Assembly (NCBI GenBank): GCA_026545225.1
Contig: CM048849.1
Location: 55,943,836-56,007,835, forward strand
Direction: 5' to 3'
Length of the DNA stretch: 64,000 nt
DNA from: Cornus controversa
Taxonomy: Eukaryota > Streptophyta > Magnoliopsida > Cornales > Cornaceae
This document shows, piece by piece, positions 1,440 to 64,000 of this stretch (within the stretch, counting starts at the first letter, position 1; each line of letters starts with the position of its first letter). The position numbers and the translations under genes were made by a program. Below the pieces are notes generated by a model. The model was not told the origin of the DNA, did no database searches, and worked only from the letters and a program-made list of their open reading frames with translations.

Positions 1440-4400
1440 ATGATAATGTTGCTTTATTTATTTTATGTGGAGTCATTTTGTGTCTTTGTCAAAGTCATAG
1501 ATACATATCATGACTTGCATTTTCATCATTTGGATTCAGTTAGTACAATATGGAATGTGGATCCTGATATGTATTCTCATCTTGATTTGAGTGAGGATTG
1601 TTATAAAGCCCTTACTGATATATATGGCATTATTGGTTTGACACTAATAATACACTATGAATTACCTGATAATAAGCATAGGATGTTGGTCAGTAGTGAT
1701 GTTGAAAAACATGTTTAGCTTTCGTGTTTCTAGGAGAGACATAAACCTATTTGTTGAAGTAGAGACACCTGTTAGTGTTTATCTTGGTGAGAATAATGAA
1801 AAGAAATATGATCAATTTGAGAATGAATAGGAAAATGTTGAAGTTGATAATAACAATGAAGGGGTTTTTTTTTTTTATCAAACTCATAATGAACAAGAAC
1901 ATGTCACGGTTAATAATAACAGTGAGAGAGGATTATGTGTATGGGTTAGCTCTGAAGATGAAGATTGGAATGAAGGTAGTTCTCAATCTGAATCATCTAG
2001 CAATGATGAAACTCGAATAAATGAAAGAATAATTAGGAACAATGCCTATTTGAACAGAACTGATGATGAGTTAAATGATTATGAATCTAATGATGACCGT
2101 GGGTACTCATCAAGTGATGGGTGGAATGAAAAGATGAAGTTGAAGAGGGATATTATGGAAAAATAATGACAAAGACAAGAAGTAAAAGAAGACCAAAGAT
2201 TAGGGTGTGTGATTACAACAAGTATGGAAAAGAATTTCGTAAAGTTGAAAGGGTTCAAATTGAACTGGAATAGTATCATATCTTTGACAATGTAGACTAC
2301 TTTAGAGAAGTATTGAAGGATTATGAAATTCAGGAGGTGGTTTAAACTGTAGAGAATAAAAAATAAAAAAACAAGAGTGACTTGTAGGTGTAGCACACAT
2401 GGCTGCCCATGGAGGATACATGCATCACCTCTCCCAGATAATGTGACATATATAATTAAGACATTGGATCACACACATGATTGTATTACGTTTACAAACA
2501 CTGATAATCCAAAGGCAGATTCCAGGTGGATAGCTAAAAAGTTTGTTTATAGGTTTCAAAAAAATCCAGAGTTGATTGTGAATGGATTGAAAGGGGCACT
2601 TAAGTCAAGTCATAGACTTCAACCAAAAATGATGAAGTTGTACAGGGCAAAGAGAAATGCAATGGATGATGTTGAGGGCAGTCATTTTGTCTCCTATAGG
2701 TTACTACCCTAGTATGCAAATGAAATAAGGAAAATTAATCCAGGCAACTTAGTTAAGTTCAACCATTGTCAACCTAATTTTACTGTGAACCCAATATTTA
2801 AGAGAATTTTCATTTCATTTGAAGCAATGAGAACTGGATTCAAGTTGGGTTACAGACTATTTATGGGGTTGGATGACTGTCATTTGAAGGGACCATATGA
2901 TAGTGTACTATTGGCAGCATTGCTTTGGATGCCAATAATGGTTTCTTTTCTGTGGTATTTGCTGTGGTGGAGAGTGAGAGAAAGGACATTTGGGTATTTT
3001 TTTCTACAACACTTAAGCACTGTAATTGAAGCAGATGCATTTTCCAAACATTGGACCATCATGTCAGATATATAAAAGGTAAATCAAAATTCATTTTTTT
3101 AAAATCAATTACTGTCCTAAATTATATTTTTGTTGTTTAATTAAGTTTGTTAAATATGATAGAGCCTTGACCAAGCAATTATAAAAACCATTCCCTAAGC
3201 AACTTATTGACTGTGTTGTCAACATTTGTACAATGCATTTAAGAAAAAATATGGTGGGTTCATGTTAAGGAAAAAAATTTAGAAGGCTGCTAGAGCCTAT
3301 AACTCATATAATTTTGAAGAGGCAATGGATCAACTTGGATCTTACAGCTCATGACTAACTTTCAATTGTCAGCTTGGTCTAGGCATGCATTCAATCCAAG
3401 TGTGAGAAATGATCATGTGACAAACAACATAACTGAGAGTTTCAACAATTAGGTTGGTGACCTTAGGATGATGCTTATATTTTCATGCTTAGATGGGGTT
3501 AGGATAAAACTTATGGAAAAACGTTAAAAAAGTACCAAGTGGGTTGCAACTGGAATAGTGTGGTCACACCAAACATTAGGAAGTAATTAAACAAGCTAAC
3601 TGCTGAGGGAAGGACATATAATATGAGGGTTGATGGTAGGGGGTGTTTGAGGTAATGGATGAGTCATTTAGGCATATCATCAATCTGAATACAGAACATG
3701 TGACTGTCATGGTTGGCAAATCTCAGGCTTACCTTGTAAGCATGCAGCAGCTGCAATATGTTATCCTAAAGACAATATTAAGACTTACTGTGATTCATAT
3801 TACACTGTTGAGACATTTATGAAGACATATCAAGGAATGATATATCCTATACTTGACCCAAAACTATGAGAGCCATACACTGGAATACTATTGGATCCTT
3901 CTCCTCTTAGAAAACTACCTAGAAGGCCTAGGAAAAATAGAAGAAAAGATGTTGATGAAGTTGCCCCAGGTACTAGTCTGTATAAAAGGAGTTTTACTCT
4001 TGCATGCACACTTTGCAAAAGATTTGGGCACAAACAAAGAACTTGTCAAAGGGCTCCAACTATAAGGGAACAGATGATATGAATTTACTTTTTTTTTGCA
4101 TGTAATCTTTATTTATTTATATATGAATCAGTTAATTTGAGGATGTAATACTGTTATATTAGACACAAGAAGCTGGAAGAGGAATAAGAAGTGTAAGGGC
4201 ATCCCAATCAGAGCCATGTGTCACCTAACAATAAGTGGAGTTGGTTTATAATTTTCTATCCAATCATTTAATAGTTTTTTTTGACATATTTTTATTATTA
4301 TTTGTGATAGCAACAAAATGACACATATGAAAGAGGGAGCTCAATCCCACCATAGAGAGGTAGAGGGACTACAGTTCCACCATATGCATAGAAAGGGAGA

Positions 4401-5271: not shown

Positions 5272-6418
5272 TGTAGAGACCATGACCAATTTTGACCGAT
5301 TTCTGATTTTCCATCATTTTTTCTATAAACGCATTTTGAATGATGTCTTGGATGTTTCAAGAGTGAAAAACATGTTTGGAAGGTTAATTTAAAGTTTTTG
5401 AAAGTTTTCAGAACATTTGGAGAAATTTGACTTTTTGATCAAACTGGGGCGTTGGACGCGGTCTAGGTGGGCCCAAAAATTCAAAAAATTTTTAAAAAAA
5501 TATTATTTTTGATTTTGAGTGTAACTAAATGTTTAATGAGTTAAGGGAGTGATTTTGAGGCCGTAGGAATTTTTGAAATAGAAAATGGAGCTCAGAAAAA
5601 CACGTTAAGTGACTTAAGGGCAAAATGGTCATTTTTCCTTGATGAGGTGTCATATATACATATATATATATATATATATATTGCTGAGGCAGAGGTGATA
5701 CATACAGATTTCAGCCATTGAAGGTTCTCCTTCTTCCCCAAGCTTCCTTCTTGATTTTATCACTTTAAAGTGTGATTTGGGTCTTGTCTCAATAGATAAA
5801 GCTTCTCCTATTTTCCTCCTCTATACATTGGTGGGTTCAAAGTCCCCCAAGTGAGAGTTTCAAAAATTGAGAGTTACGAAAGTGTAGATTTGGGCTTCGT
5901 CCAAGAAGGAAAGTGTGTTCTCCTCGATTCGATCTACAGTTCTATGGAAAAAAATCGCAATTTGGACAAACTTGAAGTTTGGTGATTTTTGGAGATTGCT
6001 TAGAAGGCTTCCAAACTTGAGGTAGAGGTATTCTCTCCATCTTATCATCGATTTCTTAGGAATTGATGTGGGTTATGTTGTTTAGTATGTTTAGAGTTAC
6101 TAGGATGTGTCTTGCATTTTTAATTGGATCAATTTATGCTAATTGATGATATTGTTGAATTCATGAGTATTGAATTGTGTTTATATGTTTAAATGTTGTT
6201 AATGGTGGAGGAATGTTGCTTTATAACATTATTTATAGTGTAGAGACCATGTTGTGTATAATGCATGTTATGTTTTGATAATATGCATTATAATGATTAT
6301 TTCATTCAAATGTTGTTTTGTTATATGCATGGAATCACATGTTTTAACATTTGAATTAAGTTACTTATGATGTGCTTAAATTATGAAATTGATGCATTAT
6401 TTCATGCATGAGATTACA

Positions 6419-6988
6419 TGTAATACCCCGCTCCAACACATGGTATGATATTGTCTGCTTTGGGCCTAAGCCCGTACGATTTTGCTCTTGGATTTTACCC
6501 CAAAAGGCCTCATACCATTTGAAGAGAACATACTACATATAAGCACATTCCCTTTTCCACACCCAGGCGATGTGGGACTGAGCACCCTGTACCCTGTCAG
6601 TGTGGTAGCTCAGCCCAGCGTTTGTTTTCAAACCCGCCCACTCACATCCGTCCACAAGGGTTACTACAATCCACCCCCCTACGAGGCCCGACGTCCTCGT
6701 CGGCATACTTCCAACTGGGTTCAGGCTCTGATACCAACTGTAATACCCCACTCCAACACATGGTATGATATTGTTCGCTTTGGGCCTGAGCCCGCACGGT
6801 TTTGCTCTTGGATTTTACCTTAAAATGCCTCATACCATTTGAAAAGAACATACTACATATAAGCACATTCCCTTTTCCAAACCCAGGCGATGTGGGACTG
6901 AGCACCCTGTACCCTGTCAGTGTGGTAGCTCAGCCCAGTGTTTGTTTTCGCACCCGCCCACTCACACCCGTCCACAAGGGTTACTACA
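6419..6988 (-). mobile_element. TRIM (terminal-repeat retrotransposon in miniature), complete
   Basis: Two direct LTRs of exactly 250 bp (6419-6668 and 6739-6988), about 15 differences by eye and mostly transitions, flank a 70-bp interior. On the minus strand the interior starts with a primer-binding site containing TGGTATCAGAGC, complementary to the 3' end of initiator methionine tRNA, and ends in a purine tract (GTAGGGGGGTGGAT). A 5-bp duplication TTACA lies at 6414-6418 and 6989-6993. It has no coding capacity, so it must have been moved by the enzymes of another element. The same family recurs at 36413-36985 and 37277-38219. Confidence 0.93.
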
Positions 6989-9188: not shown

Positions 9189-9452
9189 TTAAGAAATTAT
9201 AAAGTACGATGATAGATATATATATACACACCAATTAATGTACAAGAGACGTCCAAGTACAAAAGGGCTGCCGGGCCACAACAAGTGCCTTGAAGTTGCA
9301 TGGCTCCTTCTAAACCACTTAAAGCTCATGAAAGTGCCAAACATTATCCCTGAATTGTACAAACAAAAATTGAACTGTCAGTGGTGGTAGCTCTTTGACT
9401 TGATTGATTTCTTCCTTCATGACCATTTGATCATTCGTTGGTTGGTTTAGAC

Positions 9453-10196
9453 CAGGGCCGGCCCTGGGCCTAGGCGGCCCAGGAGACCGCCTAGGGCCCC
9501 CAAAAATTTTAATTTTTTGAGGGCCCCAATTTCTAGTAAGTCCACTAGATGTTATTTAAAAAAAAAATAGTAACTAATAGCCTAATACACTAGTTTGGGT
9601 CAAAGTTTAGTAACAAAGTGTGTCTCATTTAAAAAATAATGATAATGGTCCAATACAATGGTTTGGGCCTCGTTTAAAAAATAATGATAATGGTCCAATA
9701 CAATGGTCTGGGACTTATTTAAAAAAAATAAAAATAAATTATTACTAACTATTTGTCTTAGACAAATTTTTTTTTTCATAACTCATTTCCTTTTATTCTT
9801 CTATATTCACAACAAGCAGGCGAGCAGCAGCAGGCGGCAAGGCAACGACTTTCCTTAGGGGATTGTGAGCACTTTAATTGATAATTTTGTAACTCAAAAT
9901 GCAAGACGATCACATTTACTTTGATATGAAGTTCAATTTTGATTTTTGTGACTAAGGTATATTGAATATTTTTTTTTAATTTTTTTATGTAAACTGGATC
10001 GTGCTATTTATAAAACACCAAGACCAGGGTTTTTTTTTTCAATATTAATATATTTTATTTGTTTATCGTCTCATTTTAATAAAAATTTTGCACTCCTATA
10101 GAATTTATCCACACATAAAATTTTAGGTAGAAAGGGCCCCTTTTTAAAGTCCGCCTAGGACTTCTCAACATTTTTGGAATCTCAGGGCCGGCCCTG
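9453..10196. mobile_element. Non-autonomous hAT-type element, copy 1
   Basis: Both ends carry the palindromic terminal motif CAGGGCCGGCCCTG, with GGGCCTAGGCGGCCC just inside the left end and an inverted counterpart (CCGCCTAGGAC) near the right. The flanking 8-bp repeat GTTTAGAC (9445-9452 and 10197-10204) is typical of hAT insertions. Copy B of the duplication has an uninterrupted site (TCTAAACTGATGG near 28222-28236), which confirms the insertion. No transposase is inside. A second member of the family lies at 28978-29640. Confidence 0.9.
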
Positions 10197-10441
10197 GTTT
10201 AGACTGATGGCTTCCATGAAATCACAGGGATTAGATACACACGCATACAAAGTCCATGTACACCTCAAAGCTTGCAAACCAATAATTAATGACTACATAT
10301 ACTGTATATTCTACACACAGATATTTGTATATTCTATATATACAACATTGATGCTTAAAATGTGGTCAACAAGCCTACTGAAGAATCTTTAACGTGGGTA
10401 AACGAGGCACCAAAATTTGAGCAAACTCACAATTAATTTTA

Positions 10442-16150: not shown

Positions 16151-19100
16151 ATCTTGAAGATGTATATCCTCCTAGCTTCCAAATCTTGAAGATGAAGGTC
16201 CCTTGTTCTTGATCTTTAAATTCCTTTTTCTTTCTTCAAGTAAAGTCTCAAAGAATCACTTATATGACCCTAGTGATGGAATCTCTAAACCATAGCTTGT
16301 GGCAGCTCAAGAAAGAAAAATCACCATTGAAGAGGCCTTGAGAAATGAGGGTTTCTCAATGAAGAAGATGAAGTGACTACAATATGTATTGTATCTCTCT
16401 CTTCTTCTTTTTTTCTTGTATTTGCGGTCTTGCATATTATTATCTTCTCAAGACAACAATATATAAACCACTAATTAGGTGCCCTTAGCACTCCATAAAA
16501 AAAGAGTGTCATCCTAATTTAATTCTCTACAATGGGTGCCTTAGCACTTCTACCAAAAAAAGAAGTGTCCCTAGCGTATGGGTGTACTTAGCAATCCCAA
16601 CCACTTAGGAGTGCCCCTAACACCCAATAAATAAATAATAGGAGTTCTCATATTAATACATACTATTTATTTATTTTTTTCACTTTCTTGGGCTTATACT
16701 TCCATCTATGTGGGCTATATGTGAAGATCTTATTTGAGCCCAATCTCTTATTGTCTCCAATGAATTAATAACTGTTCCGATCATCCAAAACCATAATTCA
16801 ATTAATTCATTAACCAAACAAAGTACCACTATAAATGAATAATTACACTCCAATTTGATAAAGGTACTAACCACCATATTAATTAATTATGAAATTACCC
16901 CTATACTCACAATTGAGTCGGATAATATACCACCAATTTATACAACAATTGATATTTGTTAAGCCACTTGATTATTGCCCGTAAGATCACAAATATTGTT
17001 TTAATAAAAATGATAAGCATATAAAACAAATATTACAACTCGGTCATGTTGGTTTTGACACCGAAGATTGCCAATTACAAGAATATACATCACAATCTCT
17101 CCCTTTAACAATTTTGTGACAAAATCTACCTAGACAATTATAACATAACCACTGAAAAAATCAAATTACAATATGTCCTAATTATAAAGAAATATATTTT
17201 GAAGAACTCGGAGTATCATAAGCAAACTTTCAAACTTCATACGCAGTGTCTACCAAAAATCAGTAAAATTCGCATATCATGCAAACAACACTACTTGTGA
17301 AAGCTTAATCAAGAAAATATAATGATATAAAAATCAACTCTAAACTCCCCCTTAATCATATAACTAATGAAGTATACTATCTCCCCATATGTTTCTCATG
17401 TCTCCTCCTTTATCACATACATAATTCATCTATCCCTTTTTAGAACAAATTGACAAAATAAGACAACCAAAAACTAGAGAGAACCAATCAATACATGATT
17501 AAGTGAGATAAAAATATAACCTCCAATTAAATATATCACATATGTCTCAAAATGATGGAATGTTACACATAAGCATAACATTAAAAAAACATAGAAAACA
17601 TAAAATATAACATATCTAAGTAAATAAAAGTATAGAACATAACAAGTTCAACCATCAAAGACTAGACATAACATATTTGAGCAATAAACATAACCAACTA
17701 CTCAATGTCTAGCAAAACATAAACTAGGTCTAAACAATAAAGACCAAATCCTCATCTTCCTTATCATCATGAGCTCTAGAGCTTCCAAGTAAAGTTCTCC
17801 GAATCAATTCTTCAAGCTTTGAGAATTTCATCTTTAAGTACTTCTCTAACCCCTTCATGGATTGATTGTACTGTCTGGTAGTCAAAGCATGATTAGAATC
17901 CAGAACATAAAGTCCGGCAATAAAAGCATTGTTATCAGTCTCATCCACAACCTCCTTCATAACCTGTTACCTTGTAGCTTCCTTTTGAGCCATTTCCTTC
18001 ATCTTGTTAGTTATCGAAGACTTAACATTTGAAGCCGTGAACTTTCCTTTGGACTTCCTAACTAGACCATTTGAAGGAATATACACATTTTTTGCCTTAA
18101 GAATTTTCATCACAATCAAGGGAAAAGGTAAAGCATTGGTAGGCTTAGAATAATTTGTCTCTTGAATCATAATCCTCAAAATGGTATCCGACACATTAAT
18201 TCTATCACCATTCACAATGTAATATAAGATCTCACCTCGATGTCGTGGCAAATCACCCTTATGATCATGAGGGTTAAGAATGTAGGACACAATCAAATTC
18301 AATGCAAAGACATTATCTGTCACTTGAAATTTTATTCTCAAACAATGGAGTCTTTAGTTCACACAACATCTTAATGATTTCTTCTATGCTTGGAATGCTC
18401 TCTTCGGTACCTATATAAAGAAAATTTATACCATTCTTTGCCTCTGTAACTCCAATAACCTCATAAATTAATTGGGTAGTCACCTTGATCTCTGTCCCAA
18501 AATATTTTACCGTCATCTATAACTCTCCATCACTATAAGTAAGCACATTACTATAGAAGTAGGCAGTAGCGAACCATGTCGGGAATACAATCCTTGCCTA
18601 GGTTAGCTAGTGATCCCCAACCATTATTTCTAAAGTAGTGCATAAACTCCAAATGATAGTCTTGTCATACGCTATCCAAATCAAAGCTCCGTTCGCACCT
18701 CATTGGCCTACAACCAATCATTATCTTATAGTTGTCAAAAATTCCTTCCTCATCAAAATGATCTTCCGTGAAAATTATATTGTCTTCCGGTGTTAAAAAA
18801 ACATTAACTCTTTATCTTCTAGAGCCACCGACCATTGCCATGATAAGAGGAATGCAAAATAAGAAAGTTAAGGCCATTGGAGAATTTTTACAAACACTTG
18901 GAGTGCAACCTTTGAAAATACAAGCTTCAAACAAACTTTGTAAATTCAATCTCCCGAACACAATACAAATCCTCCAAAGATCAATCACTTTCACTACTTC
19001 AACTCAAAATCAACCACAAATATCAATCAATTTGATGAAGATTAAGTAGCACAAGGTTTATTTAGAGTTACGGCAAAGTAAGGAAAAAAGGCACACGATA

Positions 19101-21412: not shown

Positions 21413-21889
21413 TAGTACAATAGACGTGCAAGTACAAAATGGTGCAGGCCCACAACAAGTGCCTTGCAGTTGCATGGCTCCTTCTAAACCACTTGAAGCT
21501 CATGAAAGTGCCAAGCATTTTCCTTAATTGTACAAACAAAAATTGAACTGTCAGTGATGGGAGCTCTTGACTTGATTGACTCCTTCCTTCATGACCATTT
21601 TATCGGAGCCGGATCCTCGGCTGTAATCGGCTAATGCCGTATAGTGCTGTAATCCGAAAGTCTGTGCATCTCATGTATCATCAACCAAAAGAAAACTAAA
21701 ACATTAATAAAAGTCCATAACTTTTACCACAAATAATATTTTTTGATGAAACTAATTTTTTTAAATAGTATATTCCAAGAGCTTCAATATGAGTATAATA
21801 TAGGCTATGTTTTGACTTAAGACAAAAAAAATTATGTTATTTATAATTCATGTCAAATTATAATATTCACACTATTAAAGTACTTTCCA

Positions 21890-24800
21890 AACACTTAAAA
21901 AAAAAAAAAAATTATTTTTTTCCTTTCCAAATTTTTTTGGAACTCATAGGCACATTTGAAAGATATATTTTGCACAAAAAAATCAAAAAAAAATATATTC
22001 AGATTTTTTAAGCTAATTTTTATTTCACTTTCCACACTTTTAAAGTACTTTTGACAAATTTAAAGTTCTTTTCCACACATTTAAAGAACTTTTCCACACA
22101 CCTAAAACAAATACTTTCTTATGTTTTTTCTTTCCAATTTTTTTAAGAACTCTTAGTCATATATGAAAGATGTTTTTGCACAAAAAATTCATCAAAATTT
22201 ATATTCACATTTTTTAAACTCATTTTTTTCAACTTTCCACACTTTTAAAGTACTTTCCACACACTTAAAACAAATATAAATATATTTTTTTCCTTTCCAA
22301 TTTTTTTTGTAACTCTTAGGCACATTTGAAAGATGTATTTTGCACAAAAAATCATAAAAATTTATATTCACATTTTTTTGGCTAATTTTTTTCTCACTTT
22401 TCACACTTTTAAAGTACTTTCCACAAATTTAAAGTTCATTTCCACACATTTAAAGAATTTTTCCACACACCAAAAACAAATACTTTCTTATGTTTTTTCT
22501 TTCCAATTTTTTTAAGAACTCTTAGTCATATATGAAAGATGTTTTTGCACAAAAAATTCATCAAAATTTATATTCACATTTTTTTTAACTTTTCACACTT
22601 TTAAAGTACTTTCCACACACTTAAAACAAATATACATATATTTTTTTCCTTTCCAATTTTTTTTTTAACTCTTAGGCACATTTGAAAGATGTATTTTGCA
22701 CAAAAAATCATAAAAATTTATATTCACATTTTTTTGGCTAATTTTTTTCTCATTTTTCACACTTTTAAAGTACTTTCCACAAATTTAAAGTTCATTTCCA
22801 CACATTTAAAAAAAATTTCCACACACCAAAAACAAATACTTTCTTATGTTTTTTCTTCCCAATTTTTTTAAGAACTCTTAGTCATATATGAAAGATGTTT
22901 TTGCACAAAAAATTCATCAAAATTTATATTCACATTTTTTTTAACTTTCCACACTTTTAAAGTACTTTCCACACACTTAAAACAAATATACATATATTTT
23001 TTTCCTTTCCAATTTTTTTTTTAACTCTTAGGCACATTTGAAAGATGTATTTTGCACAAAAAATCATAAAAATTTATATTCACATTTTTTTGGCTAATTT
23101 TTTTCTCATTTTTCACACTTTTAAAGTACTTTCCACAAATTTAAAGTTCATTTCCACACATTTAAAAAAAATTTCCACACACCAAAAATAAATACTTTCT
23201 TATGTTTTTTCTTTCCAATTTTTTTAAGAACTCTTAGTCATATATGAAAGATGTTTTTGCACAAAAAATTCATCAAAATTTATATTCACATTTTTTAATC
23301 TCATTTTTTTTTAACTTTCCACACTTTTAAAGTACTTTCCACACACTTAAAACAAATATATATATATATATTTTTCCTTTCCAATTTTTTTTGTAACTCT
23401 TAGGCACATTTGAAAGATGTATTTTGCAAAAAAAATCATAAAAATTTATATTCACATTTTTTTGGCTAATTTTTTTCTCACTTTCCACACTTTTAAAGTA
23501 CTTTCCACAAATTTAAAGTTCATTTCCACACATTTAAAAAAAATTTCCACACACCAAAAATAAATACTTTCTTATGTTTTTTCTTTCCAATTTTTTTAAG
23601 AACTCTTAGTCATATATGAAAGATGATTTTGCACAAAAAATTCATCAAAATTTATATTCACATTTTTTAAACTCATTTTTTTCAACTTTCCACACTTTTA
23701 AAGTACTTTCCACACACTTAAAACAAATATAAATATATTTTTTTCCTTTCCAATTTTTTTTGTAACTCTTAGGCACATTTGAAAGATGCATTTTGCACAA
23801 AAAATCATAAAAATTTATATTCACATTTTTTTGGCTAATTTTTTTCTCATTTTTCACACTTTTAAAGTACTTTCCACAAATTTAAAGTTCATTTCCACAC
23901 ATTTAAAAAAAATTTCCACACACCAAAAATAAATACTTTCTTATGTTTTTTCTTTCCAATTTTTTTAAGAACTCTTAGTCATATATGAAAGATGTTTTTG
24001 CACAGAAAATTCATCAAAATTTATATTCACATTTTTTAATCTCATTTTTTTTAACTTTCCACACTTTTAAAGTATTTTTCACACACTTAAAACAAATATA
24101 TATATTTTTTTCCTTTCCAATTTTTTTTGGAACTCTTTGGCACATTTGAAAGATGGATTTTGCACAAAATAATTCATAAAAAATTATATTCAAATTTTTA
24201 GGAATAATTTTTTTTCACCTTCCACACTTTTAAACTACTTTCCACACACTTAAACACAAATATTTTTTTTTGTTTTTTTTCTATACAATTTTTTTAGGAA
24301 CTCTTAGGCACATTTGAAGGATGTATTTGCACAAAATAATCATAAAAAGTTATATTCAGATTTTTTAAGCTAATTTTTTTCTCACTTTCCACACTTTTAA
24401 AGTACTTTCCACACATTTAAAACATTTTCCCACACATTTAAAGTACTTATTCACACGCCTAAAACAAAGACTTTTTTATCTTTTTTCTTTCCAATTTTTT
24501 TAGGAACTCTTCGGCATATATGAAAGATGTTTTTGCACAAAAAATTCATAAAAATTTATATTTGCATTTTTTAATCTCATTTTTTTCACATTCCACACTT
24601 TTAAACTACTTTCCACACACTTAAAACAAATATTTTTTTTATTTTTTTCTTTCCAATTTTTTTAAGAACTCTTAGGCACATTTGAAGAATGTATTTGCAC
24701 AAAAAAATTATAAATTTTTTTTTCCACATTTTTTAGGATCTTTTTTTTCTCACTTTCCAAACTTTTAAAGTTTTTTCAACTAATTTAAAGTACTTTTCCA

Positions 24801-25159
24801 CATATTTAAAACAAATATTTTTTTATGGTTTTTCTTTCCAATTTTTTTAGGAACTCTTACGCATATTTGAAGGATGTCTTTGTACAAAAAAATCATAAAA
24901 AATTATATTCACATTTTTTAGGCTCATTTTTTCTCACTTTCCACACTTTTAAAGTAATTTTTACACATTTAAAGAACTTTTCACACACCTAAAACAAGTA
25001 TTTTTTTTTATGTATTATCTTTCCAATTTTTTAAAAAACTTTTAGGCATATTTGAAGGATGTTTTTGCACAAATAATTCATAAAAAATTATATTCACATT
25101 TTTTAGTTTCATTTTTTCTCATTTTTCACACATTTAAAGCACTTTTTCACACACTTAAA
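21890..25159 (+). repeat. Left arm tandem array of the foldback element (about 356-bp higher-order unit)
   Basis: Units repeat the order: TTCCACACTTTTAAAGTAC, CACACACTTAAAACAAATA, a poly-T tract, AACTCTTAGGCACATTTGAAA, then GCACAAAAAATCATAAAAATT. Near-identical copies start at 22333 and 22689 (offset 356), with further ones near 23041, 23412 and 23783. Each unit consists of two related halves, one with AGGCACATTTG and one with AGTCATATATG. Units nearer the loop are more diverged. Confidence 0.9.
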
Positions 25160-25193
25160 TGTGTTGAGAGTATTTTAATTGTGAGGAAAATGC

Positions 25194-27850
25194 TTTAAGT
25201 GTGTGAAAAAGTGTTTTAAATGTGTGGAAAATGAGAAAAAATGAAACTAAAAAAATGTGAATATAAATTTTTATGATTTTTTGTGCAAACTACATCTTTC
25301 AAATGTGCCTAAGAGTTCCAAAAACAATTGGAACGGAAAAAATTATATATATTTGTTTTAAGTGTGTTGAAAATAGTTTAAAAGTATGAAAAGTTAAAAA
25401 AAATGAGATTAAGAAATGTGAATATAAATTTTTATCATTTTTTTTTGTGAAAAAACATCTTTCATATATACGAAAGAGTTCCTAAAAAAGTTGGAAAAAT
25501 AAAATATAAAAAACTCTTTGTTTTAGATGCGTGGAAAATTACTTTGAATGTGTGGAAAGTACTTTAAAAGTGTGGAAATTGAGGAAAGAAATAGACTAAA
25601 AAATGTGAATATAAATTTTTTGAATTTTTTTGAACAAAAAGATCCTTCAAATATACCTAAGAGTTTATAAAAAAATTGAAAAGAGAAAAATAAAAAAATT
25701 TATTTGTTTTAAGTGTGTGGAAAGTACTTTAAAAGTGTGGAAAGTTAAAACAAATGAGATTAAGAAATGTGAATATAAATTTATATGATTTTTTTTTTGT
25801 GAAAAAACATCTTTCATATATACGAAAGAGTTCCTAAAAAGGTTGGAAAAATAAAATATAAAAAACACTTTGTTTTAGATGCGTGGAAAATTACTTTGAA
25901 TGTGTGAAGAAGTACTTTAAATTTGTGGAATGTACTTTAAAAGTGTGGAAAATGAGAAAATGTGAGCCTAAAAAATGTGAAAATATTTTTTATAATTTTT
26001 TTGTGCAAAAATATTCTTCAAATATGCCTAAGAGTTACAAAAAAATATTGGAAAGTAAAAAACAAAAAAGCAATTGTGTTAAGTGTGTGGAGAGTACTTT
26101 AAAAGTGTGGAAAGTAAAAAAAAATGAGATTAAAAAATGTGAATATAAAATTTTATGATTTTTTTGTGCAAAAGCATCTTTAATATATGACTAAGAGTTC
26201 CTAAAAAAATTAGAAAGAAAAAACATAAAAAAATATTTGTTTTAGGTGTGTGAAAAAGTACTTTAAATGTGTGGAAAGTACTTTAAAAGTGTGGAAATTG
26301 AGGAAAGAAATAGACTAAAAAATGTGAATATAAATTTTTTGGATTTTTTTGAACAAAAAGATCCTTCAAATATACCTAAGAGTTTATAAAAAAATTGAAA
26401 AGAAAAAAATAAAAAAATTTATTTGTTTTAAGTGTGTGGAAAGTACTTTAAAAGTGTGGAAAGTGAAAAAAAAATGAGATTAAAAAATGTGAAAATTAAA
26501 ATTTTAGGATTTTTTGTGCAAAAACATCATTCATATATGCCTAAGAGTTTCTAAAAAAATTGGAAAGAAAAAACATAAAAAAATATTTGTTTTAGGTGTG
26601 TGGAAAAGTACTTTATATATGTGGAAAATGACTTTAAATGTGTGGAAAGTATTTTAAAAGTGTGGAAATTGAGGAAAAAATTAGACTAAAAAATATGAAT
26701 ATAAATTTTTTGGATTTTTTTGAGCAAATACATCCTTCAAATATACCTAAGAGTTTCTAAAAAAATTGAAAAAAATAAAATAAAAAACATTATTTGTTTT
26801 AAGTGTGTGGAAAGTACTTTAAAAGTGTGAAAAGTTAAAAAAAATGAGATTAAGAAATGTGAATATAAATTTTTATAATTTTTTTTGTGAAAAAACATCT
26901 TTCATATATACGAAAGAGTTCCTAAAAAAGTTGGAAAAATAAAATAAAAAAAACTCTTTGTTTTAGATGCGTGGAAAATTACTTTGAATGTGTGGAGAAG
27001 TACTTTAAATTTGTGGAATGTACTTTAAAAGTGTGGAAAGTAAGAAAATGTGAGCCTAAAAAATGTGAAAATATTTTTTTATAATTTTTTTGTGCAAAAA
27101 TATTCTTCAAATATGCCTAAGAGTTATAAAAAAATATTGGAAAGCAAAAAAATATAAAAATCAATTGTGTTAAGTGTGTGGAGAGTACTTTAAAAGTGTG
27201 AAAAGTGAAAAAAAATGAGATTAAAAAATGTGAATATAAAATTTTATGATTTTTTTTGTGCAAAAACACCCTTCATATATGCCTAAGAGTTTTTAAAAAA
27301 ATTGGAAAGAAAAAACATAAAAAAATATTTGTTTTAGATGTGTGAAAATGTACTTTAAATGTGTGGAATGTAGTTTAAATGTATGGAAGGTGAGTAAATG
27401 TGAGCCTAAAAAATGTGAAAGTAATTTTTTTATAATTCTTTTGTGCAAATACATTTTTCAATTATGCTTAATAGTTCCTAAAAAAAATGTGAATATAAAT
27501 TTTTATGATTTATTCGTGAAAAAAATCTTTCTAACGTGTCTATAAGTTGCTAAATAAATTGTAAAAATAACATAAAAAAATATTTATTTTAAGTGTGAAA
27601 AAGTACTTTAAATGTGTGAAAAGCGAGTAAAAATGAGATAATAAAATGCGAATGTAAATTTTTATGATTTATTTGTGAAAAAATATCTTTTAAATTTTTT
27701 AAGCACATTTTTTTTTTTATGTCCACAAACATTTAAACACATTTTTTTTTATAAACATTTTTAAAAAATATTAAAATGTATATATTTTATGTGTAAGAAA
27801 GATTTTAAATGTAGTGAAAAATTACCCAAATGTGTAAAATAAATGGGAAA
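25194..27850 (-). repeat. Right arm tandem array of the foldback element (inverted)
   Basis: The same repeat family as the left arm, in reverse complement (GTGTGGAAAGTACTTTAAAAG and CCTAAGAGTT motifs). Copies are more diverged from each other than those in the middle of the left arm. Confidence 0.88.
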
Positions 27851-28002
27851 AATTTTATTTTTTCTGTCTTAAGTTAAAACATAGCCTAAGTTATACTCAA
27901 ATTGAAGCTCTCGAAATATTTTATTGAACAAAATTAGTTTCATCAAAAAATATTATTTATAGTAAAAGTTATTGAATTTTAAGTGAAAAGGAAAAAGTGT
28001 AA

Positions 28003-28039
<37 letters not shown>

Positions 28040-28312
28040 TGTACCGATATTATAAAATGAATCATCTATACATATGTATGCACATATAGATATTATAAAC
28101 TATTCCAAATGAAACTATATATGTATAAGATAATAATATTTTATTACATTCGGATTACATTACAGCATCTTACGGCATTAGCCGATTACCGCAGACGATC
28201 CTGGTCCCATTTTATCACTCTTTGGTCTAAACTGATGGCTTCCATCAAATCAGAAGGATTAATTTAGATACATATGCATACAAAGTCCATGTAAACCTAA
28301 AGCATTGCAGCC

Positions 28313-36412: not shown

Positions 36413-36985
36413 TGTAGTGACCCTTGTGAGCGAGTGTGATGTAGGCGGGTGCAAGAAGAGATACTAGGCTGAGCTACCACTCTGGCAGGCTACAGGGTGC
36501 TCAATCCCACATTTCCTAGGTGTGGAGAAGGGGATGTGTTTATATGTAGTGTGTTCTCTCCAAATGGTATGAGCTTTTTTGGGGTAAAAATTCAAGAGCA
36601 AAACCGTGCAGGCTTAGGCCCAAAGCGAACAATATCATGACATCAGGTGGAGTGGGGTAGTACAGTTGGTATCAGAGCTTAAACCTAGCCAGAAGTGTGC
36701 CGAAGAGGACGTCGGGCCTCGTAGGGGGTGGATTGTAGTGACCCTTGTGGGCAGGTGTGCTGTGAGCGGGTGCAAGAAAAGACACTAGGCTGAGCTACTA
36801 TACTGGCAGGCTACAGGTTGCTCAATCCCACATCGCTTGGGTGTGGAGAATGAGATGTGCTTATATGTAGTATGTTCTCTCCAAATGGTATGAGACCTTT
36901 CGGGGTAAAAACCCAAGAGCAAAACCGTGCGGCCTTAGGCCCAAAGTGGACAATATCATGCCTTTAGGTAGAGCGGGTTATTACA
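36413..36985 (+). mobile_element. TRIM retrotransposon, complete
   Basis: Two 252-bp LTRs (36413-36664 and 36734-36985), both starting TGTAGTGACCCTTGTG and ending TACA, flank a 69-bp interior. The primer-binding site TGGTATCAGAGC is at 36667-36678 and the purine tract GTAGGGGGTGGAT is at 36721-36733. An exact 5-bp duplication ATGTC lies at 36408-36412 and 36986-36990. Same family as 6419-6988. Non-coding. Confidence 0.93.
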
Positions 36986-37148
36986 ATGTCTTATTACTTT
37001 TGATTAAAAATTAAGAAAAATGACAAATTATTCTAAAAAATAATGGTGACAATGAGAATTTTTAAAAAAAAAATTTATTTATTTTATGAAACTTTACAAT
37101 CGAAAATTTTTGTGGACTTAACAAAAGCAAACAAACAGTGAAAACACA

Positions 37149-37276: not shown

Positions 37277-38219
37277 TGTAACGACCCGCTTCACCACATA
37301 GTATGATATTGTTCACTTTGGACCTAACCCGCATAGTTTTGTTATTGGGTTTTACCCCAAAAGACCTCATACCATTTGGAGAGAACATAGTACATATAAA
37401 CATATCCCCTTCTCCACACCTAGGTGATGTGGGATTGAGTATTCTGTAACCTGCTAGTGTGGTAACTCGCCTAATGTCTCTCGCACCTGCCCATATCACA
37501 TCCGCCCATAAAAGTCACCACAATCCACCCCCTAGGAGGCCCGACGTCCCCGTTGGCACACTTCCGGCTAGGTCTAGCTCTGATACCATTTATAATAGCC
37601 CGTTTCACCACATGGTATGATATTGTTCGCTTTGGGCCTAAACCCGCACAGTTTTATTCTTGAATTTTACTCCAAAATATTTCATACCATTTGGAGAGAA
37701 CCCACTACATATAAGCACATCCCCTTCTCCACACCCAAGTAATGTGGGATGGAGCACCCTGTAGCCTACTAGTATGGTAGATCGCCTAGTGTTTCTCGCA
37801 CCCGTCCATATCACACCTGCCCACAAGGGTCACCACCAAAACCATGCAGGCTGGGCCCAAAGCGAACAATATCATACTATGTGGTGGAGCGGGTCATTAC
37901 AAATAGTATTAAAGCCGAACCGAGCCAGCCAAAAGTGTGCCGATAAGAACGTCGGGCCTCTGAATGGGGTGAATTGCGGTGACCCTTGTGGGTGGGTGTG
38001 ATGTGGATGGGTACCAGAGACACTGGACGAGCTACCACACTGGCAGGCTACAGTATGCTCAATCCCACATCGTCTGGGTGTGGAGAAGGGGGATGTGCTT
38101 ATATGTAGTATTCTCTCCAAATGGTATAAGGCCTTTTGGGATAAAATCTAAGAACAAAACCCTGCGGGTTAGGCCCAAAGCAAACAATATCATACCATGT
38201 GGTGGAGCGGGTCATTACA
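37277..38219. mobile_element. Head-to-head pair of TRIM elements
   Basis: The left part is a minus-strand TRIM: LTR 37277-37522, interior 37523-37590 with the complement of GGTATCAGAGCT, and second LTR from 37591 to about 37835. It abuts a plus-strand TRIM with only the last ~66 bp of its first LTR (37836-37901), a degraded primer site (AATAGTATTAAAGC), and a full second LTR (37975-38219). The outer flanks GTATG (37272-37276) and GTGTG (38220-38224) differ at one base. Either one insertion jumped into another, or recombination made an inverted dimer. Confidence 0.82.
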
Positions 38220-38459
38220 GTGTGCCTGTCTATATATGCTTCTTTTTTCCTACTATTTAAATAACGGGTCAGTGCGCAAAACAAACATTCACTGTTGATT
38301 TTATGATATTTGTTTCATTCAATTTTTCTGAGCTCCTTGTTCTCATTAATTTAATTTTTGTTTCTTACTTATAACTATATATTGGGCTTGTCATGAAGTC
38401 CATCATAAATTAATTTAGAGAATTATCAAATGGGTAACAAATTAACAAATAGGATCAAA

Positions 38460-47275: not shown

Positions 47276-49297
47276 ATGACCACCGTACTCATATCTCCTC
47301 CTATGAGCACTCTGCAACTCAATGCCCGTTTCTCTTCCTTTTTGGACTCCAATCAAAGGGTATTCTCACATGGGTCTGTGCATCTGCACAAGACATGGAA
47401 ACATAGTATGTTTGTCAATGCAAAACCCATCATAAAAGATGGGGTTTTGAGCTTCAATGGCACTGAAGCACTGACAAGCGTGCCGGAGAATGTCGTCCTT
47501 ACACCATGGACTAATTCATCAGCATTTGTGGGTGCCACTTCCAATGTTAATATTTTAATTCTTGGTTCAGGGATAATGATTAGATACTAGTATAGAGATT
47601 GGAAGGGATATATTTGTTGATTACACTGCTTTACTAGGGCAGTAGATCCAGAAGTCATAATAATAAGAATTCTATGCAATTCAATATATACACATTTTTA
47701 AACAGTCTCTGACTGATAAATCTTTATTTACAAGAAATGGTTTGTCATTAGAGAAATTCTGGGCTTATGAGCTTGAGAATACATTTAAATGTGTGTGAAT
47801 TTTCCAGTTTAATGTGTGAAAAAATATGTGCGTGTGTATGCTCTTGTTTGCTCATGTTCACTGGGATTGGGCCTTGGTTCATATTTTATATCACAAGTTA
47901 CAAAATTTAGAATTTAGAGACATGGTTTATATCCACAAGAATCATATAGAAGATGATATGTTTTGCAACACCTTCACTAATCTTTCTGAAAGTGTAACAA
48001 CTTAAACTTAAATTCTAAAACTAAGAGCAGTGATGGAAATCACCAGTAACAAAGATGCAAACCTCCCCGGACTCCGGCCACAACAACTATGGTTGTTCTG
48101 CCAATAATACTTGTCTCTTCACCACACCTCATCACTATTCAAGGATTACTTGAATTATCCCTCAACGATTGTTAACAAAAATTTAAAATTCCAGTGAAGA
48201 TATATGACTTTGTTCCATTCTTCTTGATTTTTCGTTTGATATCCGTTTCAGAAATTCATAGATTGTGATTATGGTGCTATATCCTTTGTGTGTGTTTACA
48301 TCCTTGCCTTCACCTATACTTCACCCTTTATAAGGTTGTTCTTTGTAGGAAAAAAAAATCTGAGTTCTTTTCATGATATCTATCATTCTTTGGTGTAATG
48401 GTAACACAGCCCTGTTGACAAGTGTGAGAATGTATGTTCAAGTATGCTTTGTGTAAAGTAATACTAAATGTTACATGAAATTAACATTCGGGCAATGTTA
48501 AACCCATCTCCATTGCGATGAAATTAGCATTCGGGCAATGGATGGAACTGACCTAATTTTTTCTTCATTTTTGTTTCGTCAGTTTCCAATTAATACTGAC
48601 CCTTTTCTGTCTTTTGCCTAAGGAGGAGGTTAATTAATGAACTTCAATTTTTGGTGAACAAGAAGACACAAGCACATCGGATACAATTGTGTGTCGCATG
48701 ATCAAAGGGCAGATTTGTCTCAGAAAAATGAGAGGACATTCTATTCCTGTAGAAGATTAGAAATGATAGAAGAGTTAGGTAGGCATCCAAATGATTTGTG
48801 GTGATCATTCATATATATATATCCTAGCTCCTATCGTTGGGAAACAAACTTACATCACTCATAGAAGTTTGTGCCTTTGTCTCCTTATTATCATCACTAC
48901 CTCCTACAGTATATGGTCTGTTGATATTGCTATTTGTATGTTCTGACCGTCTCTCCAACTACTCTGAAATTCAAAACTTGTACTAACAAGGGCATTAGAA
49001 GCTTCACTACTTCCAACCCCACCATGACCACCGTACTCATATCTCCTCCTATGAGCACTCTGCAACTCAATGCCCGTTTCTCTTCCTTTTTGGCCTCCAA
49101 TCAAAGGGTATTCTCACATGGGTCTGTGCATCTGCACAAGACATGGAAACATAGTATGTTTGTCAATGCAAAACCCATCATAAAAGATGGGGTTTTGAGC
49201 TTCAATGGCACTGAAGCACTGACAAGCGTGCCGGAGAATGTCGTCCTTACACCATGGACTAATTCATCAGCATTTGTGGGTGCCACTTCCAATGTTA
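45710..49297 (+). repeat. Tandem duplication, unit about 1.8 kb (45710-47549 and 47547-49297)
   Basis: The unit runs from the protease 3' flank (TTAATATTTTAATTCTTGG at 45710) through the spacer to the middle of glycosidase exon 1 (CACTTCCAATGTTA). At the junction (47547-47549) exon-1 sequence passes into protease 3' flank through a shared TTA. The copies differ by small indels and by private blocks: about 46460-46840 in copy 1, and about 48040-48300 in copy 2. Confidence 0.9.
47276..47549 (+). pseudogene. Truncated exon 1 copy of the raffinose-synthase-family gene
   Basis: It starts with ATG in the same context (CCACCATGACC) and matches the N terminus of the downstream gene almost completely (one visible change: SSFLDSNQ here, SSFLASNQ there). 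It stops being exon at ...ATSNV and runs into the duplicated protease 3' flank, where the frame soon ends. About 91 codons of the original exon remain, mostly the transit-peptide-like part, with no catalytic residues. Its upstream region, including the TATA-like stretch, is duplicated too, so it could still be transcribed. Confidence 0.88.
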
Positions 49298-52200: not shown

Positions 52201-55200
52201 TTGGTGCCAGATTAGTCAGCATACATGAAAATAATAAGTTCCAGAGAAAAGCAAATGAGGATTTAAGCAAAGCACCTGGTTGTCTTAAGGATTTTGTTTC
52301 AGAAATAAAGAGGACTTTCGGCCTTAAGTATGGTTTGACAGTGTCCCCCACCCCCTCTCTCCCCCATTTTTGCCTTTACTTTTACTTTGATAAAAATGTA
52401 AAATAACAATGGGATTAGAACATAAGGATGCCATGCAGTAGTTCATCCTTCGTGGTCTTTTCTTAGATTCCTTTGTTGCCATTGCCAACAATATGATGAT
52501 TCATTTTTGTTTTTTCCCTACTGTTTTCAGGTATGTCTATGTATGGCATGCACTGATGGGATACTGGGGTGGACTTCATCCAGATGCTCTGGGAACTAAA
52601 AAGTATAATCCTAAATTACAATTCCCAATACAGTCACCAGGGAACCTTTCACATATGAGGGATGGATCTATGGACGCTATGGAGAAGTATGGCGTTGGTA
52701 CAATTGATCCAGCAAAAATATCAGAATTTTATGATGATCTACACAGTTATCTTGTGTCGCAGGAAGTGGATGGGGTTAAGGTTGATGTGCAGAACATACT
52801 TGAAACTGTGGCAACTGGTTGTGGAGGCCGAGTCTCACTCACTAGACATTTCCAACAAGCACTTGAAAAGTCCATAGCCACCAACTTCCAGGATAATAGC
52901 ATTATCTGTTGCATGGGTCAGAGCACAGATACAATTTACAAGTATTAAACTTGTGCACCCAATTTCCTGCTGAATTTCAGTACAAAATATAGTATGCATT
53001 TGGAATAATTTAGAAAACAGAAATAAACTAAACAGCATCAGTTATTGCCATCTTAAGCGCTCTCCTACCAGCCACTACTATCAAAAGAATCACATGTCTT
53101 GGCTATCGAGGAAAACAAAATGAATGTCAATTCAGGGCAATGAGGACTTATTGCCACATATATTTGACCATGGAATCTGTATTAAGTTCATACAACTTTA
53201 TACTGGGAACCCATTCTTCACATGTGAGAAGCATGAACCAAAATAGTTTTGCTAGAATTTCTTAGCATGTAACCCGGTGTTACCCTATATGGCTATATCT
53301 CTTCTCTCTTTACATGGTCTTACTAATATAAACTTATCATCATGCATTAGGAAAAAGAACCATAGCATCTCCGCATATTACTTTTTAAAGATCATCGTGC
53401 CTTCTATGTTTATACCTGATTCTAGTTTGCAAAATTGTTGATCAATGTTTCCAAGGATTATAGTGATTGTGTTCTTCATTTTCTGTTGCAGCACAAAAAG
53501 AAGTGCTATTACACGTGTTTCTGATGATTACTATCCCAAAAACCTAACCACACAGACATTGCACATAGCTGCCGTGGCTTATAACAGCATATTTTTTGGA
53601 GAAGTTGTCGTCCCCGATTGGGACATGTTCTATGTATGACTTTGCCTTTTCAGTTTATGCCTATTGCCTTCTTAACAATCCTGGCAATTGAGTTATTTTC
53701 TTTAATACCTTTCAGAGCCTCCATGATGCAGCTGAGTTTCACGCAGTTGCTCGTGCAGTAGGAGGTTGTGGAGTCTATGTCAGGTGAGGCTATCTTATTT
53801 ATAGAGGTACAGAGGCTCAAAGAGGCCTAACAAACAATGTTAAATATGCACATGATGGCATCTCAACATTTTCTGCTTTAAAAGTTGAAAAAGCATACAT
53901 GTTTGCCTATATTTTCAATATCTAAACTTGCATATTTAGTAGAGATGTACGTGTACACATGAGAGTTTGGTTCCCCTATTCTTCTCATATGTAATTGAAT
54001 TACCCCCCTTCTTTTGCAACTATTGTCCCCATGTTAAAATAAACCTCTCCATTTTCCCTTTTTTATTCCTATCATGCCCACCCCAGTGTATCCATGTGTA
54101 TGTGTGTGTTATAGAGAGAGAATCTTGGCTGCATTACTCTTTACTGGATATTTGACTGGGGTTTTTAATGATTAGTCATGCTAAAAGATTTTCATAAATT
54201 GGCAGTGTCCGTCAAACCTACACAAGAAATAACTCTACAAATATTTAATAAAATCTCATTAAGATTCGTTGCATGTTCCTTCTTTTACCACTTTCCCCTT
54301 TCTATTATCCTTTTACCCCTAAATCTTGAACCAACTCACTTATTTCTTATTCGTGAAGTCTTTTTTTAAGTGCATATATATATTATATATCATATCACAT
54401 AATTAGGCCATTTTAGCCTACTATGTCACCTTTTTGCTAAGGTGTTCACTCTTGTGCTTCATTTTCCTTGAAAATACTCTTCATCTTTAATGTTTCTCAA
54501 GCACCATCATTTAAAACAGTGATAAACCAGGACAGCATGACTTCAAGATACTAAGAAGGCTTGTTCTTCCCGATGGATCAGTGCTGAGAGCTAAATACCC
54601 TGGAAGGCCATCGCGAGATTGTTTATTCAATGATCCAGTTATGGATGGAAAGAGGTATCCTTTTGAATTCTAATTGCATTTTATTTGTTTCCCGTGTTCT
54701 ATTTTTCGAATCAGTTTCTCTATTTTTTGAAACCACAGCCTTCTGAAGATTTGGAACCTGAACAAATATACTGGAGTTATTGGTGTGTTCAATTGCCAAG
54801 GAGCTGGAAGCTGGCCTTGTATGGACAATACCGTTCAGAGCAATGTCAGTTCTAAGCTATCTGGACTGGTCTCTCCTGCTGATATTGAGTATCTTGAAGA
54901 AGCTTCAGGGGAATCATGGAAGGGAGATTGTGCTGTCTTTTCCTTCAGCTCAGGTACAATTATACTTGCTCAATGTTACCTGGAGTGTTGATCATTCTAG
55001 TATGCAGATTGAGAACAAAAATGCATTATGTCACATACTATAAAATGTGGTGAGATAGGAGTATGCTTATGCAGTCACATAATTAAGATGTGCTGAGGTA
55101 GTTCAAATTGGGAGATTGTTGTGTTCTTTAATGATATAAAGTTACGCCTATTGAATCTAATTGAACTGTTGAATTTTGATTATAATGCATTGATTTATAT

Positions 55201-58974: not shown

Positions 58975-64000
<5,026 letters not shown>

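Follow-up and report, generated by a model that had tools for sequence, protein, structure and literature searches.

A non-autonomous foldback element, probably a MULE, with arms of satellite-like repeats in Cornus controversa

The closest known kinds of element to the one described here are the MULE foldbacks FARE and Tm1, together with Tetris. As the citing papers PMC4486113 and PMC3169594 present it, FARE (Windsor and Waddell 2000) is an Arabidopsis foldback MULE and, compared by description only, it resembles the Cornus family in being a plant foldback of the MULE class with long palindromic ends and a MULE transposase. The Cornus family has arms built from a dimeric ~164/206-bp array, and relatives above 40 kb that bear a transposase; neither feature is mentioned for FARE in those two accounts. 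Tm1, a Mutator/foldback of Meloidogyne, has, according to the portions of PMC3169594 that deal with its structure, foldback inverted repeats with a variable number of tandem repeats, target duplications (TSDs) of 8-10 bp, most commonly 9, in 45 of 53, and one MULE-transposase-bearing member alongside many non-autonomous ones. However, its repeats are 13-15 bp, as against a ~370-bp dimer here, and the 2.5-kb Tm1-A encodes a FLYWCH (Phantom) transposase, whereas the Cornus family has a FAR1-type transposase and elements exceeding 40 kb. In the parts of PMC4079207 used here, Tetris, a foldback of Drosophila virilis, carries tandem ~220-bp repeats in its inverted repeats, with copies differing by whole units, and has TSDs of 8-10 bp; satellite formation from within Tetris has been proposed there, and the relevant section of a review (PMC9659126) counts it among satellite-generating transposons. 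Its inverted repeats reach 1,735 bp, whereas the arms of the present element are ~2.5-3.3 kb; it is apparently non-autonomous by that account, which names no partner for it, whereas the Cornus family has a transposase-bearing partner; and its satellite arrays run to 66 copies, whereas free arrays of the Cornus repeat were not seen on chromosome C1. MuTAnT of Medicago (PMC4486113) is likewise a family of foldback MULEs, in which the long inverted repeats are modular and a mudrA-like partner exists, but its members measure ~200 bp to more than 1.6 kb and target (TA)n, and satellite arms are unmentioned in that paper's account. Apart from these four, the part of the literature covered yielded nothing that we recognised as a plant MULE with satellite arms.

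The element lies within a 64,000-nt stretch of Cornus controversa DNA (the window) and is a complete insertion of 6.6 kb at 21605..28207, made up of a 9-bp TSD, inverted tips, two head-to-head tandem-repeat arms and a short loop.

21596..21604, + strand: left TSD copy, 9 bp, CATTTTATC; two exact copies in the window
21605..21641, + strand: left terminal inverted tip, of 37 bp, resembling others across the genome
21642..21867, + strand: left subterminal region, including the subterminal module 21708-21852
21868..25158, + strand: left arm, 20 tandem monomers by monomer HMM, ~164/206-bp alternation, 356-370-bp dimers, all +
25159..25194, no strand: loop, 36 bp, at the orientation switch
25195..27694, - strand: right arm, 16 tandem monomers in - orientation, ~83% to the left arm (best long match)
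27695..28170, - strand: right subterminal region, with subterminal module and an (AT)n tract at 28006-28036
28171..28207, - strand: right terminal inverted tip, 37 bp
28208..28216, + strand: right TSD copy, 9 bp

An earlier note on this DNA had described an exact 9-bp target duplication, inverted tips, and two reverse-complementary arms of a dimeric ~356-bp higher-order repeat around a ~34-bp loop. The duplication and the tips were borne out: searched for on both strands, CATTTTATC has just two copies in the window, at 21596-21604 and 28208-28216, and the 37-bp tips, which start with GG, are identical at 32 of 37 positions. The arms are indeed inverted arrays of tandem repeats, but the long inverted matches between them are of about 75-84% identity (the best, 22058-24254 against 27380-25194, covers 2254 bp at 83.0%), so that they are imperfect rather than exact reverse complements. 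The loop length was near the mark, at 36 bp. The dimer stands, with a period of 356 in the left arm (6.5 copies, 94% match), but is really composed of about 164 + 206 bp (~370 bp). The monomer HMM finds 20 plus monomers followed by 16 minus, and the right and left copies of the subterminal module are identical at 115 of 134 aligned positions.

The same note had pointed to a paralogue of the target that lacks the element. It exists, but in a more complicated form than was claimed.

9240..9452, + strand: paralogous empty target site, left part, by homology to the joined flanks

The joined flanks of the element match 9240-9435 at 90% identity, and the homology picks up again at 10195, running over 10195-10276 (83%); it is broken in between because the paralogue has its own insertion of 744 bp (9453-10196), with the TIR CAGGGCCGGCCCTG and the 8-bp duplication GTTTAGAC. 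Once this insertion is discounted, the paralogue is an empty target site, which together with the exact TSD upholds the reading of the feature as an insertion.

A genome-wide search with the tips, which the earlier note had named as a test that could refute its reading, found these tips, along with 9-bp TSDs, on many further copies. Allowing at most one mismatch in the 771.7-Mb genome, the tip core occurs at 105 places (reversed control, 1), and the 100 of these that were listed form at least 41 convergent pairs, 3.8-26.6 kb core to core. We call elements and pairs with tips of this kind WIN-type. Both tips were retained in 30 of 33 WIN-type pairs examined, three having lost one; an exact 9-bp TSD flanks 23 of the 30 two-tip pairs and is lacking in seven, the count rising to 25/30 at one mismatch or fewer, and none of 870 crossed pairings gave one. 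In 20 whole spans plus the window element, each of 19-49 monomers, there is exactly one switch from + to - (21/21), as the proposed foldback architecture predicts, and the array keeps one orientation with respect to the tips in all 21. Taken over the family, the tip, TSD and architecture results exclude chance as the source of the structure of the window element. No transposase was found inside these 21 elements, whose longest stop-to-stop frames (two per element) reach 138 aa; those of the frames inspected by eye read as repeat or extend into the flanks. Nor was a recognisable transposase present among frames of at least 100 aa, one of them Pfam-scanned, in the ~1.7 kb inside 11 unpaired or odd tips and one on C11. 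No element combining exact WIN-type tips with a transposase was found, the 26.6-kb pair being the one pair above 10 kb whose interior was sampled.

The repeat is AT-rich and satellite-like in monomer size and dimeric higher-order structure. Short and long monomer spacings alternate in 450 of 542 neighbouring pairs across the 21 elements, and a sub-repeat of 20-21 bp recurs within the monomers. For 512 of 660 monomers the closest relative sits in a different element. Of the 16 pairs of copies aligned, 10 reach 99.0-99.6% identity, and in nine of those the two copies differ by gaps close in length to one, two, four or five dimers; in the 26.6-kb pair (TSD 8/9), three interior samples (8 kb) consist of array only, in a single orientation. 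Genome-wide there are 3674 array anchors (control, 0), which at 20.3 anchors per element sampled amounts to ~180 element-equivalents. This exceeds the 41 tip-defined pairs, and some arrays must therefore lack WIN-type tips. On C1, the 81 exact anchor matches listed fall into 20 loci, of which 17 lie no more than 8 kb from a family tip; none exceeds 41 kb, the longest (40.2 kb) being that of a 44.7-kb element considered below, and no free satellite array independent of the transposon was seen among these matches on that chromosome.

The predicted protein P0001 (722 aa) matches PF03101 (FAR1), PF10551 (MULE) and PF04434 (SWIM), all above cut-offs, and gave no match in the PDB at E <= 0.01; 150 of 886 MULE candidates were scored. 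At all nine loci listed with this FAR1/MULE/SWIM transposase at 91% identity or more, the array lies upstream of it in fixed orientation, as opposed to none of seven sampled copies at 52-69% identity. Four of the nine are enclosed by related tips 42-46 kb apart, and a further pair of tips is more widely spaced:

C1, 44.7 kb: transposase between related tips, TSD exact
C5, 42.0 kb: transposase between related tips, TSD exact
C9, 46.4 kb: transposase between related tips, 10-bp TSD exact
C3, 43.2 kb: transposase between related tips, TSD 8/9 after a 1-base shift
C6, 71.0 kb: transposase between related tips, no clear TSD

Two arms were seen in the C1 element only, and the upstream array was seen in the other four. 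Several transposase copies in matched giant elements are free of stops. An exact 9-bp TSD is present in seven of 11 autonomous-type pairs (one of the seven being the low-complexity ATTTTTTTT) and lacking in four, with none in 110 crossed pairings. The module at 21708-21852 recurs at both ends of the 44.7-kb element (123/144 identical at its left end, 127/146 at its right).

This linkage to a FAR1/MULE transposase, which was beyond the reach of the earlier note, supports on sequence grounds the MULE affiliation that had been proposed from the 9-bp duplication. The family combines the 9-bp TSD, terminal inverted repeats and related P0001-bearing elements of a MULE with the long inverted repeats, internal tandem repeats of variable number and short middle of a foldback, and, like Tetris, has arrays that have expanded within the element, as seen in the gain and loss of nearly whole dimers and in the 26.6-kb element. 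The earlier note had suggested that the element might seed satellite DNA or, if transcribed, yield very long double-stranded RNA; on the first point, near-unit changes in array length are demonstrated, and no free-standing satellite was seen among the C1 matches. The interpretation that we favour, with a probability of roughly 0.87, is that the feature is a non-autonomous MULE foldback, derived from a larger transposase-bearing parent and mobilised in trans by its transposase. The parent would most likely have been of the kind seen in the four best examples of 42-46 kb, carrying this repeat together with a gene for a FAR1-type MULE transposase, and the foldback would have arisen by loss of the content between the arms. 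A P0001-type transposase may then act in trans on the tips and the subterminal module; since 28-29 of 37 positions agree, and 8-9 differ, between WIN-type tips and those of the 44.7-kb element, with no relation in the sequence that separates tip from module, we infer such cross-mobilisation rather than observe it. Insertion produces a 9-bp duplication, and the arrays move with the element, most monomers having their closest relative in a different one. Close copies have gained or lost about whole dimers, presumably through unequal exchange, slippage or palindrome repair. The outcome is then a satellite-like repeat that is spread by transposition and can grow longer within its element, the longest WIN-type pair listed measuring 26.6 kb.

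Assembling long palindromes is hard, and the feature might come from misassembly, or be an inverted duplication of chromosomal DNA with no transposon involved; however, the exact TSD, the empty paralogous site and the recurrence of its plan, with differing TSDs, at many unlinked loci leave this barely credible. A mirror artefact of assembly was rejected on the ~83% identity of the arms, the empty paralogue and the many loci. It is also improbable that the repeat began as a chromosomal satellite and came into a MULE by later capture, so that the element is its vehicle and not its source. The satellite-like monomer size, AT-richness and dimeric structure fit such a history, as does the excess of anchors over tip-defined pairs, but the tip-associated and bounded distribution of the C1 anchor matches speaks against it, and so does the constant orientation of the array relative to the tips (21/21 elements) and to the transposase (9/9 loci).

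A different MULE lineage may have mobilised the foldback, with the 42-46-kb elements as a sister family sharing ancestral arms. The divergence of the tips and the ~78-86% identity between arrays of the WIN and transposase-bearing types are consistent with this, and the scoring of 150 of the 886 MULE candidates leaves room for such a lineage; yet the subterminal module and GGATCCTC-type tips are common to both types, and no other transposase was seen in the WIN-type members sampled, a partial sample, so we regard it as rather unlikely. We are similarly doubtful that the array is under selection for the element, for instance as many putative binding sites for the transposase or a host factor, or as a source of hairpin RNA that shapes silencing. 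The fixed orientation and the recurring sub-repeat would suit a selected role, but the wide range of lengths (pairs of 3.8-26.6 kb) fits neutral expansion equally.

Returning to the non-autonomous MULE foldback, it appears that here the transposon multiplies and spreads a satellite-like repeat. More tentatively, and at somewhat less than even odds, this may be a 'mobile satellite', i.e. a higher-order repeat almost confined to one MULE lineage, multiplied by transposition of whole arrays and not through enlargement at a single chromosomal site, changing length in near-unit steps within the moving element, and with a carrier above 40 kb that bears a transposase; if so, transposon and satellite form a single selfish unit. 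The origin of new satellite DNA is an open question, as is the part that transposons may have in building and spreading it. This one genome offers sister copies differing by counted repeat units, clear footprints of insertion and, in giant elements, stop-free transposases, so that one can test directly how fast and by what mechanism an array grows in a transposon, and whether hairpin RNA brings about any silencing.

The window also contains a MuDR-type ORF (2353-2712), which was considered as a partner of the element and rejected: its sole Pfam match is PF03108, not FAR1, and the only tip cores in the window are the two of the element at 21605-28207.

The window element and its tips are as follows.

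21605-28207: window element, between two copies of CATTTTATC
Ends of the element: inverted 37-bp tips, 32/37 positions identical to each other

Both the exact 9-bp duplication and the inverted tips claimed in the earlier note are thus borne out, and CATTTTATC has no further copy in the window on either strand. Inward of the tip lies a subterminal region and then tandem repeats (21868-27694), which on the left have a period of 356 bp (6.5 copies, 94% match in TRF); the unit is a dimer of ~164 + ~206 bp, in agreement with the proposed dimeric higher-order repeat, and within it a 20-21-bp sub-repeat recurs. The monomers face inward, 20 on the left and 16 on the right, with a single orientation switch at a loop of 36 bp, close to the ~34 bp first read. 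While the two ~3-kb tandem arms stand, their description as exact reverse complements does not, since the best long inverted match between them is 83% identical, and they are better regarded as related arrays than as exact mirror copies. The element-free paralogous target was also recovered, at 9240-9435 (90% to the joined flanks), though it is split by an unrelated 744-bp insertion of its own, past which homology to the flanks picks up again at 10195. That insertion (9453-10196; ends CAGGGCCGGCCCTG, 8-bp duplication GTTTAGAC) we take, from its ends, to be hAT-like.

The suggested genome-wide search for other members, run on the 771.7-Mb assembly (61 contigs), whose genes and repeats fit a flowering plant, placed the 19-bp tip core at no more than one mismatch in 105 places, against 1 for the reversed pattern. 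Among the 100 of these places that were listed, neighbouring cores form 41 convergent pairs, the two cores of a pair lying 3.8-26.6 kb apart. Twenty spans were taken whole, two of them (L014 and L019) without one tip, and all 20 share with the window element a single plan of one plus run and one minus run, with 19-49 monomers per element. Both tips are kept in 30/33 WIN-type pairs examined, that is, pairs with tips like those of the window element (a tip is missing in L014, L019 and L105/L106), and the 9-bp target-site duplication (TSD) is exact in 23 of these 30 and within one mismatch in 25. An exact TSD is missing from the 26.6-kb element and from six others (L011, L012, L015, L016, L020, L022), two of which, L020 and L022, have instead 11-bp flank matches with one mismatch. 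When left and right flanks of different WIN-type elements were crossed, none of the 870 pairings yielded a duplication, either exact or with one mismatch. One further locus with a WIN-type tip, L043 (G000:C5:38513370-38515100; one core mismatch), has a GC-richer interior with a frame matching transferase family PF02458, and is possibly a gene-carrying MULE or an insertion adjoining a gene.

A scan with the 31-bp array anchor identified a place on chromosome C1 where plus and minus arms lie ~33 kb apart with a MULE-domain frame between them.

Tip pairs around the transposase
C1:126730150-126774810: 44,661 bp (the 44.7-kb element), exact TSD GGGTATGAG at both ends
C5: 42.0 kb, exact 9-bp TSD
C9: 46.4 kb, exact 10-bp TSD
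C3: 43.2 kb, TSD 8/9 after a one-base shift
C6 (G000:C6:5783597-5854621): 71.0 kb, no convincing TSD

The arms of the 44.7-kb element measure ~7.6 and ~8.5 kb (4.3 and 2.0 kb of these unread), and its 722-aa open frame carries FAR1, MULE and SWIM domains; candidate catalytic acidic residues are found in FDTTY (245-249), TDQDAA (307-312) and STQLSESLN (412-420). Its interior also holds a frame that resembles the plant mobile domain below threshold and one with PF20167 ("putative plant transposon protein") above cut-off, a family to which a window frame at 17967-18353 (minus strand) has a sub-threshold match; the extra frames of the 44.7-kb element may be either cargo or nested insertions. Both arms were seen only in C1, and the upstream array alone in C5, C9, C3 and C6. 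The GGAAGAGG tip lies upstream of the transposase gene in all five giants; the 722-aa frame is full-length and without stops in C1, C9 and C5 (C1 and C9 differ at 13/2169 coding bases), and the C3 match covers residues 1-658 with no stop. In the C6 pair the transposase is in two pieces, and nested insertions may be present. The 44.7-kb-element tip was found in 105 places (control 0), its one-mismatch matches including some WIN-type tips, and of six other autonomous-type pairs, 9.9-19.6 kb long and checked at their ends, five have an exact TSD (one low-complexity) and the sixth has none.

The MULE relation proposed in the earlier note thus gains a FAR1/MULE/SWIM transposase between related tips. 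A protein search placed the transposase at nine loci at at least 91% identity among those listed, and the array lies upstream in the same orientation at 9/9 (C1 and eight others, 1.2-3 kb sampled at each of the eight). None of seven sampled copies at 52-69% had the array in 1.2 kb taken ~0.8-2 kb upstream, an interval that a more distant array escapes, and the comparison leaves out copies at 80-89%. The WIN-type tips have 28-29/37 positions in common with those of the 44.7-kb element, both types share the array (~78-86% identity), and a subterminal module (window 21708-21852) recurs at the left and right ends of the 44.7-kb element (123/144 and 127/146 aligned positions identical). The best explanation, to which we give a probability of about 0.87, is a non-autonomous MULE foldback, most probably derived from a transposase-bearing parent by interior loss; this confidence is slightly tempered by there being a single transposase-bearing element in which both arms were seen, and by the sampling having reached the interiors of few long WIN-type pairs. 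In the simplest model, the foldback members would be deletion derivatives stripped down to tips, subterminal modules and arms, and would move in trans. That a related but unseen transposase drives them instead is unlikely, though it keeps some weight, since the scoring covered 150 of 886 MULE candidates. Separately, short MuDR-type transposase frames in the window (2353-3075; PF03108 on the first, no match on the second) belong to a MULE lineage with a DNA-binding domain unlike that of the FAR1-type partner.

Among known foldback systems, published accounts pair the ends of FARE (PMC4486113, PMC3169594) and of Tm1, with its 9-bp duplications (PMC3169594), with MULE transposases, and describe Tetris as having ~220-bp tandem repeats, proposed as a seed of satellite DNA, and allelic copies one repeat unit apart (PMC4079207). 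As far as those accounts go, the Cornus controversa family joins the FARE/Tm1 trait of foldback plus MULE transposase with the tandem-repeat arms of Tetris. New to the combination are arms that consist almost wholly of a dimeric higher-order repeat, related tips that enclose a FAR1-type transposase at a distance of 42-46 kb from each other, and a large number of close sister copies.

The array anchor at up to two mismatches occurs 3674 times genome-wide (control 0); the 20 whole spans and the window element hold 426, or 20.3 per span, so that the total corresponds to ~180 element-equivalents and exceeds the tip-defined pairs. On C1, for which alone the exact-anchor listing is complete, 81 exact matches, joined at 35 kb, make up 20 loci. 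Of these, 17 have a known tip within 8 kb; the other three, a 25-kb cluster (96.35-96.38 Mb) and two isolated matches, have no recognised tip, and no chromosomal-satellite-like array was seen among the 20. The repeat is therefore satellite-like in structure and, on C1, sits mostly at transposon loci.

Of 660 full-length monomers, 512 have their nearest relative in another element, and therefore the arrays were mostly copied as blocks. Sixteen pairs of elements were aligned, ten at 99.0-99.6% and six looser (94.2-98.8%) with more complex gaps.

Gaps in the ten pairs at 99.0-99.6% (tabulated at >=100 bp)
Window element/L022: 86 + 282 bp, near each other (368)
L009/L020: 738 and 372 bp
L009/L023: 740 and 371 bp
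L013/L020: 741 and 372 bp
L009/L016: 739 and 370 bp
L009/L025: 369 and 370 bp
L016/L025: 778 and 372 bp
L012/L028: 1503 bp
L018/L028: 1902 and 211 bp
L009/L013: none

Gaps close to one, two, four or five dimers occur in 9/10 of these pairs (the 778- and 211-bp gaps are not exact dimer fits), and most pairs also have gaps of 20-41 bp. The 26.6-kb member (TSD 8/9) is array throughout, in a single orientation, in three interior samples (8 kb). Array length thus changes inside the element, as the near-dimer gaps between sisters and these all-array samples indicate.

Other repeats in the window were also recorded.

6416-6988, 36413-36989, 37285-37830, 37837-38223: dispersed repeat of up to ~570 bp, direct and inverted copies, 80-84% identity
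46970-47549 and 48724-49297: 580-bp direct duplication (97% identity), a similar short open frame without Pfam match in each copy, upstream of a raffinose-synthase-like exon (52442-52948)
60012-60520: two tandem copies of a 251-bp unit (99% match), near a Ras-like exon (60993-61352)
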